From assembly GCF_030408635.1 (NCBI RefSeq), contig NZ_CP047198.1:992001-1056000 (forward strand): DNA of 64,000 nucleotides, written 5' to 3'. The notes below the pieces were generated by a model. The model did no database searches. It saw nothing but the letters and a program-made list of their open reading frames with translations, and was not told where the DNA came from. The translations under genes and the position numbers were made by a program. Origin of the DNA: Corynebacterium coyleae (GTDB taxonomy: Bacteria; Actinomycetota; Actinomycetes; Mycobacteriales; Mycobacteriaceae). Positions 45,997 through 50,121 of the stretch are shown here, one piece after another (the stretch's first letter is position 1; each line of letters opens with the position of its first letter).

Positions 45997-47295
45997 ATGC
46001 TAAACGTGACAGACCTGCGAGGGCGAGAGACCTCGGTACGAGAACTGCGTGCAATTCTTCCTCGTGCAGGTACCGATGTCGGCTCCGCAGCAGAACAGGT
46101 CGCGCCGATTGTCGACGACGTCCGTCGCCGCGGTGCCGAGGCAGCACTTGAATACGGGGAACGTTTTGACGGAGTACGCCCAGAAGCGGTTCGAGTTTCT
46201 TCGGATGCCATGCGGGCCGCGTTGGATGGTTTGGATGCTGATGTTCGCGCTGCACTGGAAACCTCGATTCAGCGGATCCGACAGGTACATGCTGAGCAAA
46301 AGCCAGCTACGCGCAAGACCGAACTCGCGACAGGAGCAGTTGTTACTGAGGTGTTCCGTCCGGTACATCGCGTGGGGCTTTATGTCCCGGGCGGTAAGGC
46401 TGTGTATCCGTCGAGTGTGCTGATGAATGTGATTCCGGCCCAGGAGGCGGGCGTGGAGTCCATGGTGGTGTGCACCCCGCCGCAGGCAGACTTTGACGGT
46501 CAGCCGCACCCGACGATCCTCGCCGCATGTGCGCTGCTTGGTATCGACGAGGTCTGGGCCGTTGGCGGCGCACAGGCGGTGGCGCTGATGGCCTACGGTG
46601 ACGATGACCTCGAGCCGGTCGACATGATCACCGGCCCCGGCAACGTGTTCGTTGCAGCGTCTAAGCGCCTGGTCAACGGCGTAGTTGGCATTGACGCGGA
46701 AGCCGGTCCGAGCGAGATCGCGATCATTGCCGACGACACCGCCGACCCCGTCTACCTCGCCTACGACCTGATCTCCCAGGCGGAGCACGACGAGCAGGCC
46801 GCATCGATTCTGATTACGGATTCTCCGGAGCTGGCTGAGGTCGTCGACAAGGAAATCGCGAAACGCTACGGCATCACGCTCAACGCTGACCGCGTGCGCG
46901 ACGCGCTGGAAGGCCCGCAGTCCGGGATTTTGATTGTGGACGACATCGAGACTGCCGTGCACGTGACCAACGTCTACGCGCCCGAGCACCTGGAGATCCA
47001 CACCGCGAATGCGCAGGCTGTGGCGCGCGAGATCAACAATGCCGGCGCCATCTTCGTCGGCCCGTACTCGCCGGTGCCACTGGGGGACTACTCGGCAGGT
47101 TCGAACCACGTGCTGCCAACGTCAGGTACCGCAAGGTTTGCCGCGGGGTTGAGCACGCACACCTTCCTCAAACCGATGAACATCGTCGAGTACTCCGCTG
47201 AGGCACTGGAAGAGGTCGCGGATGCCGTGATCACCCTTGCAGACGAAGAAGGCCTCCCCGCACACGGGGAGGCCATCAAGGCAAGGCGGGGCTAG
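45997..47295 (+). CDS. hisD: Histidinol dehydrogenase HisD
   Basis: 432 residues, last two oxidation steps of histidine synthesis. Zinc and catalytic residues are conserved: SQAEHDEQA near 262 (Gln and His ligands), YAPEHLEIH near 330 (Glu-His proton relay), [15 protein letters not shown] near 366 (Asp ligand) and the final His in [10 protein letters not shown]. The ribosome site AAAGGAG lies 6 bases before the ATG. In most corynebacteria hisC and hisB follow hisD; here the next gene is a convergent permease, so hisD stands alone. Confidence 0.93.
47251..47274 (+). terminator. Perfect hairpin inside the end of hisD
   Basis: Ten-base perfect stem (47251-47260 with 47265-47274) and a CACA loop, 18 bases before the last base of hisD. 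No T-run follows. A second 7-base stem (47302-47308 with 47322-47328) spans the permease stop. These may together stop convergent transcription, or only reflect coding constraint. Confidence 0.35.
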
Positions 47296-47316: not shown

Positions 47317-48726
47317 CTACTTCGCCTCGTACTCATATTCAGTCTCGGCGACAGCCTGTGGACGACCGGTAACGAAGTACAGGATGGTCATCACGATCAG
47401 GAAGCCCACACCGACGGCGAGTGCTACATGGTATTCAGGCAGCCACACCATCGTGCCGAAGGTGAAGAGGATGAACGCCACCGCGAACCACTGACCATAA
47501 GGCCAGAACGGAACCGGGAACTTCAACGCCTTGACCTCTTGGGCGGTCATCTCGCGGCGGGAAGCGATGTGTGCGATCAGAATCATCAACCAGACGAAGA
47601 TGGTGGCAAAGGTTGCAAGTGCTGCAATGGTGCCGAAGATGTCCGGGTAACGCTGGTTCAGGTACACACCGACGATCAGGGCGACGATAAGCATGGCCAC
47701 AGTCATCACCGGAACATCGCGGTAGGTCTTTGCCATGGACTTCGGCGCCAGGTTTTCCTTGGCCAGACCTGCAAGCACACGACCGGTGGAGAACAAGTCA
47801 GCGTTAATCGCCGACAGGGAAGCGCTGAGCACAACCACGTTCAGCAGAGCTGCGGCCCAGCTCACGCCGAGGGTGTCAAAGATCTGGACGAACGGGGAAT
47901 CATCACCGTTAATCGTGCGCCACGGGTTGATCATCAAGATGACCAGAATGGACAGTACGTAGAAGATCAGGATGCGCATCGGGACAGTGTTGACTGCCTT
48001 CGGGATAGAGCGGTCCGGATCCTCAGCCTCAGCGCCCGCGACACCGATGATCTCGGTGCCACCGAAAGCGAAGAGGACGAGGATGAACGAGGCTGCCATG
48101 CCGGAGAAGCCGTTAGCGAAGAAACCACCGTCGTTCCAGAGGTTGTCAATACCCATTGCCTCTGGGGACTCACCAATGTTGAAAATAAGGATTGCAGCGC
48201 CGCCGATGATCATGGCGACCACTGCGCCGACCTTGATCAGCGTGAGCATGAACTCAAGCTCGCCAAACAGGCGGACAGCGGCAAGGTTAGCTGCACTGAT
48301 GATCAGCAGTGTGACGGTAATCCAGACCCACGCTGGTGTTGTGGGGAACCAGAACTTCATATAGATCGTGATTGCTGTCAGGTCAGCCAGGCACACAATC
48401 ATCATCTCGAAAGCGAACATCCAGCCGGTGATGTAGCCGCCGAGGCCGCCCAGGTACTCGCGGCAGTACACCGCGAAGGAGCCACGCACTGGGTGACGCA
48501 CACTCATCTCACCGAGTGCACGCAGAATGAAGTACATCACCGCGCCACCCAGGAGGTAGACGAGGAGCACAGATGGGCCAGCCTCCTGGATTGCGCCGGC
48601 GGAACCGTAGAACAGGCCGGTACCAATCGCGGAGCCCAAGGCGATGAAGTGAATGTGGCGGGCCGTCAAACCTGGCCGTTTCGGTTTGGGAGTGTCTTGT
48701 TGTGTAGGTGCAGTCATGGTGGACAT
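47317..48726 (-). CDS. Amino acid permease, predicted histidine importer
   Basis: 469 residues, about 12 hydrophobic segments, AAT family of the APC superfamily (ProY/HisP/CycA-like). Seen: HIHFIALGSAIGTGLFYGSA at helix 1, GEMSVRHPVRGSFAVY in helix 3 and FAFGGTEIIGVAGAEAEDP near the middle. ATG 48726 is chosen because AAAGAG lies 10 bases upstream; ATG 48717 and the longer frame to 48828 have no ribosome site. The substrate is inferred to be histidine, because a leader peptide with three His codons and an attenuator precede the gene. Convergent with hisD. Confidence 0.85.
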   Translation of the reverse strand: MSTMTAPTQQDTPKPKRPGLTARHIHFIALGSAIGTGLFYGSAGAIQEAGPSVLLVYLLGGAVMYFILRALGEMSVRHPVRGSFAVYCREYLGGLGGYITGWMFAFEMMIVCLADLTAITIYMKFWFPTTPAWVWITVTLLIISAANLAAVRLFGELEFMLTLIKVGAVVAMIIGGAAILIFNIGESPEAMGIDNLWNDGGFFANGFSGMAASFILVLFAFGGTEIIGVAGAEAEDPDRSIPKAVNTVPMRILIFYVLSILVILMINPWRTINGDDSPFVQIFDTLGVSWAAALLNVVVLSASLSAINADLFSTGRVLAGLAKENLAPKSMAKTYRDVPVMTVAMLIVALIVGVYLNQRYPDIFGTIAALATFATIFVWLMILIAHIASRREMTAQEVKALKFPVPFWPYGQWFAVAFILFTFGTMVWLPEYHVALAVGVGFLIVMTILYFVTGRPQAVAETEYEYEAK

Positions 48727-48914
48727 TAACTGTGCTCTTTCAAATGACAATGTGCGAATCGAATCGCTTCGGGAAAATATTGGTGATGACAATGCCCTGG
48801 CTGGGCTGCGTCTTCCCGGTTTGACCATCCGGCGGGTGCACAGTAGAAGGGGGCTCGCCGCGGGGGAGGGTCTCCGGGTGCGCGGCGTGTTCCGACGAAT
48901 CCTTGACGCTAACG
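48727..48914 (-). promoter_or_regulatory. Long untranslated region between attenuator and permease
   Basis: About 190 bases between the terminator hairpin and the permease ATG. I see no open frame or further strong hairpin with a T-run. It contains the permease ribosome site AAAGAG near 48736-48741. A second promoter inside it is possible but no clear -10/-35 pair was recognised. Confidence 0.4.
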
Positions 48915-48982
48915 AAAAATCCCCCGCGCTTTGCTGCGAAGGGCAGTTAGCGCAGGGGCGAAAAGTCGGCCGACACCGCGCT
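48915..48982 (-). promoter_or_regulatory. Histidine attenuator: antiterminator/terminator switch
   Basis: Terminator: 48949-48958 pairs with 48921-48930 (ten pairs, one G-U), followed by five T at 48915-48919. Antiterminator: 48976-48982 (AGCGCGG, overlapping the leader stop) can pair with 48949-48955, the 5' arm of the terminator. A protecting hairpin is possible between 49041-49047 and 48968-48974. A ribosome waiting at the His codons would favour the antiterminator; one reaching the stop would cover 48976-48982 and let the terminator form. Read by eye, not folded by program. Confidence 0.75.
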
Positions 48983-49073
48983 ACAGATGATGATGCAGGC
49001 GGGCCGGCTGGGTATTCGGCAACGCGAAAGCGACGGCCTGGTCGGCCGTGGCGGAAAATGCGTTGCGGTTCAT
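48981..49073 (-). CDS. Histidine leader peptide
   Basis: 30 residues, ending in Arg-Leu-His-His-His-Leu before TAG. The three consecutive CAT codons lie directly in front of the antiterminator/terminator pairings, the arrangement of classical amino-acid attenuators. No ribosome site precedes the ATG, but a GTG codon directly before it (49074-49076) would be the first base of the mRNA if the -10 box at 49084-49089 is used, so the leader is probably translated from a leaderless transcript, with or without one extra residue. Confidence 0.75.
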   Translation of the reverse strand: MNRNAFSATADQAVAFALPNTQPARLHHHL

Positions 49074-49083
49074 CACGAAGAGA

Positions 49084-49089
49084 ACCATA
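49084..49089 (-). promoter_or_regulatory. Putative -10 box of the leader peptide/permease transcript
   Basis: TATGGT on the minus strand, then 7 bases and the GTG-ATG start of the leader peptide. It lies 36 bases after the lipoprotein stop. No clear -35 element, as is common in corynebacteria. Confidence 0.5.
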
Positions 49090-49125
49090 ACACGGCTGTC
49101 TTGAGTTTGGGGCGGAAATGCGAAA

Positions 49126-50121
49126 TTAATTTTTCAGACGGTGTGCTTCGGACGGGTCGAGCAGGATCACGCCGCCTGAGCCCTCGAACGCTTTAGCGCC
49201 GTTCATCTGCGAATCTGTGCAGGCGGTTCTGCGGTTTTCGGGAAGGTCCTCGTCGTCGCCAAGTCGGTAACGGCCAATGCAACCCCAGCCGTTCTTCTCA
49301 TTCGTCCATGCGGACACACTGCCTTGGATCTCACCGTTCTTCGCGGCTTCCTTGTATCCCTCAAGCGTCATCATTGCGACATCGCACGTGGTGTTGTCCT
49401 CCAGGGCGTACACGCCCATCTCAGTGCCAAGAATGTCGGAGGTGCCGCACTGTTCGCCCTTTGCCACCGTGTGTTCTTCGGTGATGCTCTGGGTCTTGCC
49501 CGGGCGGGAGTACACGCCGTCGTGGACCTCGAAGGTGTCATTGCCATACTCGACGCGGACACCGCCACCGTTGAGGTTGGTGATCACGACGTCATTGATC
49601 GTGACACGTTCGCCTTCGTTGAGATGGTTCGGCTGGATGTCGTAACCCTGGGAGCCGGGAGAGACTGCGGTGATGAATCCACCGCGGTCCGGCTTGTACC
49701 AAATGACATTGGGGATTTTGGTGTTCGGATCGCCACCGGTGTGCTCTACCGGTGGGATCGGATCGACAAACTTGGCTTGGCAGAAAACAGGGGTGTCGTC
49801 AGGGTTCCTGCCGATCCGACACCCGAATACTCCAGACTCCAGCCCAACAACGTTGTGCTCGAACCGTGAAGGGTCAACGTCGGTGTATTCGTCCTTTTTC
49901 TTGTCCTTTTTCTTGTCAGCCTTGGACTCGGTGGTCTCCTCGGTCGAGGATTCCGGAGTTTCCGATGTCGGTTCAGAGGGGTCTGAGTTTTGTGCTGAAC
50001 CTGTAACCGTCGGCTCTGGTAAGGCCTGCTCAGAGCTATCGCCGCAACCGGTCAAGGTTGCGGCGACAATAAGCGCTGCAGCAGCGAAAGATGTGGTGTG
50101 GCGTGCGCGGGAAATATGCAT
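49126..50121 (-). CDS. Secreted lipoprotein, paralogue of 40384-41286
   Basis: 331 residues. Signal peptide with lipobox LTGC (about residues 23-26), a linker rich in Ser, Glu, Thr and then Lys-Asp repeats (KKKDKKKD), and an extracellular part with several cysteines (FGCRIG, VFCQAKF, EQCGTS, TTCDVAMM, WGCIGRY). Blocks NEGERVTIND and EVHDGVYS match NPGERVTLTG and TIKDGEIV of the lipoprotein at 40384-41286. Unknown function. Leaderless promoter at 50129-50134. Confidence 0.8.
   Translation of the reverse strand: MHISRARHTTSFAAAALIVAATLTGCGDSSEQALPEPTVTGSAQNSDPSEPTSETPESSTEETTESKADKKKDKKKDEYTDVDPSRFEHNVVGLESGVFGCRIGRNPDDTPVFCQAKFVDPIPPVEHTGGDPNTKIPNVIWYKPDRGGFITAVSPGSQGYDIQPNHLNEGERVTINDVVITNLNGGGVRVEYGNDTFEVHDGVYSRPGKTQSITEEHTVAKGEQCGTSDILGTEMGVYALEDNTTCDVAMMTLEGYKEAAKNGEIQGSVSAWTNEKNGWGCIGRYRLGDDEDLPENRRTACTDSQMNGAKAFEGSGGVILLDPSEAHRLKN

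Follow-up and report, generated by a model that had tools for sequence, protein, structure and literature searches.

In Escherichia coli and Salmonella, the his attenuator (RF00514) joins tandem His codons to a choice between terminator and antiterminator that follows the charging of histidyl-tRNA (PMC9413887, PMC3896937). Short open reading frames with His codons, followed by a terminator, have also been described for hisS*/hisZ in bacilli (PMC2965389) and for some his operons in Firmicutes (PMC9413887). In the passages of the latter report cited here, the His attenuators of Firmicutes are those described on his operons, and transporters are placed under HisR or T-boxes (PMC9413887). For Actinobacteria, the cited part of a 2005 analysis lists candidates for Trp, Cys, Leu and ileS and gives the other amino-acid biosynthesis pathways as being without conserved structures (PMC1262725). 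Leaderless leader peptides are known in Corynebacterium for ilvB (PMC5784534, PMC11857589).

Here, we analyze a locus in a stretch of 64,000 nucleotides from Corynebacterium coyleae (the whole of which we call the window), where an initial annotation had recognized the logic of a His-type attenuator in front of a transporter gene. That proposal is supported by conservation in 12 genomes that carry the leader, 10 of them with the full element. We conclude that a ribosome-mediated transcription attenuator very probably couples the supply of histidyl-tRNA to the synthesis of a histidine permease in predicted histidine auxotrophs.

Results

All elements of the attenuator that the initial annotation quoted are in the sequence where it had placed them, which confirms the observation (Table 1). 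On the minus strand, the leader ends, as described there, in CTG CAT CAT CAT CTG TAG (48998-48981, with the stop codon at 48983-48981), and the tail of its peptide reads TQPARLHHHL. The length given at first, 30 codons, becomes 31 when counted from GTG 49076, the likely start, which lies 7 nt after TATGGT and aligns with the ATG or GTG of relatives. In the alignment, TANNNT stands 7 nt 5' of this ATG or GTG in 12/12 leader genomes; the spacing was measured by script in seven leaders, and the masked-folding script, which presupposes it, ran on all ten canonical leaders. A promoter search found neither a -35 hexamer nor a two-hexamer sigma-70 promoter near the leader; in C. diphtheriae, a weak -35 is reported to be usual (PMC5784534). 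With a predicted transcription start at 49076, the leader mRNA is probably leaderless.

Table 1. Features of the locus, in window coordinates
Feature	Position	Strand	Basis
Predicted -10 box TATGGT	49084..49089	-	Alignment
Leader ORF VMNRNAFSATADQAVAFALPNTQPARLHHHL, likely GTG start 49076, 31 codons + TAG	48981..49076	-	Frame, start and C-terminus conserved
Predicted His sensor, tandem CAT CAT CAT	48987..48995	-	Identical in 10/10 canonical leaders
Segment 1, 5' arm of 1:2 hairpin	48994..49008	-	Folding; pairing across canonical leaders
Segment 2, 3' arm of 1:2 hairpin, includes TAGCGCGG	48969..48985	-	Folding; pairing across canonical leaders
Antiterminator 5' arm TAGCGCGG, takes in stop codon	48976..48983	-	Pairs with 48956-48948
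Segment 3, antiterminator 3' arm CCTGCGCTA, overlaps terminator 5' arm	48948..48956	-	Masked folding; pairing
Intrinsic terminator hairpin CCCCTGCGCT (48958-48949) ... AGCGCGGGGG (48930-48921), inner stem CTGC/GCAG	48921..48958	-	
Terminator T run TTTTT	48915..48919	-	Sequence
Amino-acid permease, PF00324, predicted histidine importer	47317..48726	-	Family; alignment
hisD (histidinol dehydrogenase), convergent with permease	45997..47295	+	Sole hisD found in genome

At -80.7 kcal/mol, the fold of the 172-nt leader has a z-score of -5.35. Shuffled sequences held 1.0 +/- 1.1 terminator-like sites, against one observed in the region, and the 8-nt antiterminator match was equalled in 264 of 5000 shuffles. 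Since terminator and antiterminator alone are not rare, and no two-hexamer promoter is seen, comparison with relatives is needed: the fold z-score apart, evidence from the single sequence is modest, and conservation decides.

Scanning genome contigs with the permease gave 80 loci, of which five have a leader ending in TQPARLHHHL (Corynebacterium sp. HMSC05H05, sp. MSK008, C. haemomassiliense, C. mucifaciens and sp. Marseille-P4321). A covariance model, R1, made from these five leaders and that of the window matched 16 of 242 Corynebacterium genomes at E <= 0.1 and 12 at E <= 1e-3, six of these 12 having built the model and thus scoring high by construction. Each of the 12 matches at E <= 1e-3 is followed by a permease related to the window's (76-100% identity); at E <= 1e-120, the permease is found in 132 of the 242 genomes. 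The weak matches L098-L101 (E 0.025-0.075) and two in the window's own genome (E 1.4 and 3.56) have no permease within their 1.5-kb flanks and were discarded. In a family sample of 401 genomes from 31 genera, R1 matched six genomes at E <= 1e-3, all of them Corynebacterium; these large searches used stricter filters, with which weak matches are lost. Our searches recovered the element from just 12 genomes, all of a single genus. The Rfam His leader RF00514 had no match at its gathering threshold, nor up to E = 5 on 48860-49120, and T-box RF00230 did not match the leader region.

The comparison with other corynebacteria that the initial annotation had proposed came out in its favor. His codons, frame and the geometry of -10 box and start are kept in 12/12 leader genomes, where the length of the leader ORF varies in multiples of three, and the complete attenuator is kept in 10/12, an intrinsic terminator preceding the gene in the window and nine others. 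Compared in pairs, the ten canonical leaders share 47.1% identity 5' of the -10 box, 72.9% over the N-terminal part of the leader, 96.8% over TQPARLHHHL, 86.8% from stop to terminator, 82.2% over the terminator and 60.8% beyond it. The sequence CATCATCAT is identical in 10/10 of them; TQPARLHHHL is altered in two of the 12 leader genomes. This near-identity extends to third codon positions, which suggests that a constraint on the RNA acts on the segment beside the coding one.

The pairings fared differently. AGCGCGG (48982-48976), named from the start as an antiterminator element, is present as placed and belongs to the 2:3 antiterminator (48976-48983 with 48956-48948), whose 8/8 pairs occur in 10/10 sequences with zero variation; being invariant, these pairs show no covariation. 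The terminator stem with its five T was likewise read correctly, and the full hairpin is kept in 10/12 leader genomes, one pair of its inner stem being A-U in eight sequences and U-A in two. A third pairing, GGCCGAC (49047-49041) with GTCGGCC (48974-48968), had been proposed to block the antiterminator. It can form in the window, and it is not the conserved blocking stem: the 7-bp match occurs in the window only, and the other nine canonical leaders lack GGCCGAC there and reach 5-6 bp. The conserved blocking stem is 1:2 (49008-48994 with 48985-48969): its 15 pairs are formed in 98.7% of cells across 10 sequences, and its loop holds most of the His codons. Taking 1:2 and terminator together, 96.3% of cells are paired across the ten canonical leaders. 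Their covariation score was equalled in 1 of 500 shuffles, and the number of pairs changed on both sides, only 2, in 31 of 500, for sequences that are close kin in an alignment fitted to the model.

Switching was computed by masked folding, with the transcript cut just past the terminator 5' arm and the edge of the ribosome footprint assumed at A+12; by construction, segment 1 is covered in a stall at the first His codon and segment 2 with the ribosome at the stop. Placing the first His codon in the ribosomal A site yielded 2:3 in 10/10 canonical leaders. The transcript without a ribosome yielded 1:2 in 9/10, the exception being G095, whose 1:2 is broken at two places and which in that state folds mostly into 2:3. 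Stalls at the second or third His codon left only a partial 2:3. The complete leader at equilibrium formed the terminator in every state tried (seven leaders). Therefore, the antiterminator would have to act kinetically.

Two leader genomes, G052 and G079 (L096, L097), have lost the terminator 5' arm and kept the His codons and the frame. Their leaders have four His codons (HLAHRHQH) and no longer the TAG stop, so that they read through its old position. Such leaders might be expected if control of the permease ran by Rho-dependent termination, polarity or translation coupling, with the hairpin secondary; G052 and G079 could represent that condition. For the element as a whole, however, we consider that explanation improbable, given that the hairpin is kept in 10/12 leader genomes and that in the window it lies about 190 nt from the permease start, which makes direct coupling unlikely. 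As a separate observation, the G052 leader resembles that of G079, yet its permease clusters with the ones from G095 and G154.

A scan for other His-rich leaders covered 129 upstream regions of 800 nt, from 133 permease matches, leaving out G087 and G202 as well as the window's own and the leader-side copy of G079, the leaders of the last two being covered by the alignment of leader genomes. Leaderless-type ORFs with at least three His in six residues appeared in 10 regions, all from leader genomes, and ORFs with exactly two in G077, G018 and G203. We rejected those of G018 and G203, for which an 11-row alignment, judged by eye, contains no counterpart leader; the HHLG end of the G203 ORF recurs in G233 at the permease start, with no room for a terminator. 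The genome G077, which has no hisB, carries a leaderless-type MLSNLVWVSTQHHPSRGTPAV (L147) in which His occurs twice, and also a strong terminator. ORF and terminator occupy the stretch from about 279 to about 130 nt 5' of the permease match and differ from the other leaders, and masked folding gave no antiterminator; this is perhaps a second, independent attenuator. No such leader was seen in G028 and G106, both without hisB.

Parts of the spacer between attenuator and permease are conserved as well (48887-48808, minus strand), in blocks surrounding CGCCGCGCACCCGG and AACCGGG. The second motif does not vary among 10 aligned spacers, and the blocks possibly form a stem. A TACTGT in the window's spacer, considered as an internal promoter 3' of 48915, was dismissed for lack of conservation among the 10 spacers in the alignment.

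The distribution of the leader follows the loss of hisB. Among the 242 Corynebacterium genomes, hisB (PF00475) is present in 226 and absent in 16; the leader occurs in 12 of these 16 and in 0/226 genomes with hisB (Fisher 2.9e-17, kinship not corrected), and since the leader genomes are related, this link amounts to one or a few independent events. The gene hisG is missing from 15 of the 16 as well. The exception, G189, is 53% complete and has no permease match at E <= 1e-120; together with G028, G077 and G106 it makes up the hisB-less genomes without this leader. The window's genome has neither hisB nor hisG. By the loss of both genes, the leader genomes are predicted histidine auxotrophs, and in the window's species attenuation is predicted to sit on uptake. 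In G236, which is 77% complete, the permease behind the leader (L093) matches the window's in two different frames and may be broken or misassembled.

The best NCBIfam match of the window's permease is the proline permease ProY, at 509.9 against a cut-off of 736 bits, so far below it that the family gives no substrate. The gene probably starts at ATG 48726, an upstream ATG at 48828 not being conserved in the alignment. The permease has one match, with 72% identity, in G064, which we take to be C. glutamicum ATCC 13032, the match presumably being Cg1305 in a place that fits NCgl1108. The window's permease is probably the orthologue of Cg1305. In the cited part of one report, Cg1305 is given as the histidine uptake system of C. 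glutamicum, and its deletion in a hisG mutant is said, as an unpublished observation, to have almost abolished growth on histidine (PMC3896937). According to the same report, Cg1305 takes up Phe, and His failed to compete with it (PMC3896937). The import of histidine foreseen for this permease is supported by the absence of hisB and hisG and by the account of Cg1305 (PMC3896937), and remains a prediction from these data. One could suppose instead that the leader senses, or the permease carries, something other than histidine, the His triplet being a by-product of the 1:2 loop and the transporter serving mainly Phe or others. The unsettled substrate of the family and the Phe data fit that supposition. 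We nonetheless regard it as very improbable, because His codons persist in both altered leaders, the leader is restricted to genomes without hisB and the growth data of the cg1305 deletion (PMC3896937) point to histidine.

Least credible of all is a hairpin that serves only as the 3' terminator of the lipoprotein-like gene upstream (49126-50121), with the short ORF incidental. In favor of this reading, the gene is on the same strand and its end lies some 50 nt short of the leader, and chance alone would supply roughly one terminator-like site here. Against it, the hairpin is conserved jointly with leader ORF, -10 box and the 1:2 and 2:3 segments, conservation is highest in the His segment, and a relative of the gene was detected at only 3 of the 9 other leader loci searched (L016, L237 and L238), certainly adjoining the leader only in L238.

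Tests for hisB, hisD and hisG in the window's genome found hisD alone. It is found in five of the 16 hisB-less genomes (the window's, G052, G079, G095 and G154), each time facing the permease, and its dN of 0.06-0.21 and dS of 0.7-2.2 in 10 pairs indicate purifying selection. In a tree, the permeases of leader genomes form two clades: P2 with the window, G052, G095, G154 and one G079 copy, and P1 with G099, G152, G236, G116, G002, G187, G091 and the other G079 copy. All five P2 leader genomes have hisD and none of the seven P1-only genomes does (p = 0.0013, kinship not corrected). This association suggests histidinol salvage, in that keeping HisD after the loss of hisB and hisG would make sense if histidinol were imported. 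In G079 (L237, 4915-7812), two permeases in tandem, with 83% and 76% identity to that of the window, stand behind one leader, and hisD faces them with about 1 kb between; this arrangement may be ancestral. A citMHS tree groups the window with G099 (99/99) and an LDH tree does not; the two leaders share the inner-stem variant, though the window's permease belongs to P2 and that of G099 to P1. If the lineages descended from an order leader - P1 - P2 - hisD and lost genes alternately, the grouping would be explained despite the mismatch, for which recombination is another possible cause.

Discussion

From the elements described above, we infer where transcription starts, when it ends, when the permease is induced and what it carries. 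Transcription would begin on GTG 49076, and ribosomes would bind the resulting leaderless mRNA. Under a shortage of charged His-tRNA, one of them would stall with the first CAT in its A site and its 3' edge just before TAGCGCGG; the exposed TAGCGCGG would pair with the emerging CCTGCGCTA (2:3), pre-empting the terminator, and the permease would be transcribed. With ample histidine, a ribosome at TAG would cover TAGCGCGG, the terminator would form and transcription would end. In an untranslated leader, the 1:2 hairpin would sequester TAGCGCGG, and the terminator would form too.

More tentatively, and with considerable doubt, the locus could be a regulated scavenging module for histidine and histidinol, in which P2 imports both, HisD converts histidinol and the His attenuator sets uptake. 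An ancestral order leader - P1 - P2 - hisD, still seen in G079, would have been lost alternately to leave either P1 alone or P2 with hisD behind the same leader.

If the attenuator reading holds, amino-acid attenuation has shifted from biosynthesis to uptake in species without the pathway, and loss of hisB and presence of the switch match closely. The leaders would then offer a natural series (canonical, terminator-less and, perhaps, the independent one of G077) for the origin and decay of attenuators, as well as a leaderless leader peptide that gives a clear readout, and a route to assigning the substrate of an amino-acid permease. The lone hisD next to one subtype of the permease opens histidinol salvage to a direct test.

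A search of the open-licence literature by title and start of abstract returned, among the matches listed, no earlier description of this element. Ribosome-mediated attenuation itself is known; what is new is that the target is a permease, together with the taxon, the tie to loss of the pathway and the association with hisD. The E. coli and Salmonella his attenuator shares its logic with that of the window, but it has seven His codons and controls biosynthesis, whereas here three His codons precede a permease on a probably leaderless mRNA, in another phylum and without a match to RF00514. The His leaders of bacilli and other Firmicutes cited above have synthetase-family or biosynthesis genes as targets (PMC2965389, PMC9413887), in contrast to the permease here. 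Histidine control of uptake has been reported for the His T-boxes on hisXYZ and yuiF in auxotrophic Firmicutes (PMC9413887), which, unlike the element in the window, are tRNA-binding RNAs without a translated leader. The same genus also has the ilvBNC attenuator of C. glutamicum, with leader MTIIRLVVVTARRLP, whose leader start is reported to lie one nucleotide from the transcription start and which shares terminator, antiterminator and anti-antiterminator with the window's element (PMC11857589); it differs in its leader, in sensing branched-chain amino acids and in controlling biosynthesis.
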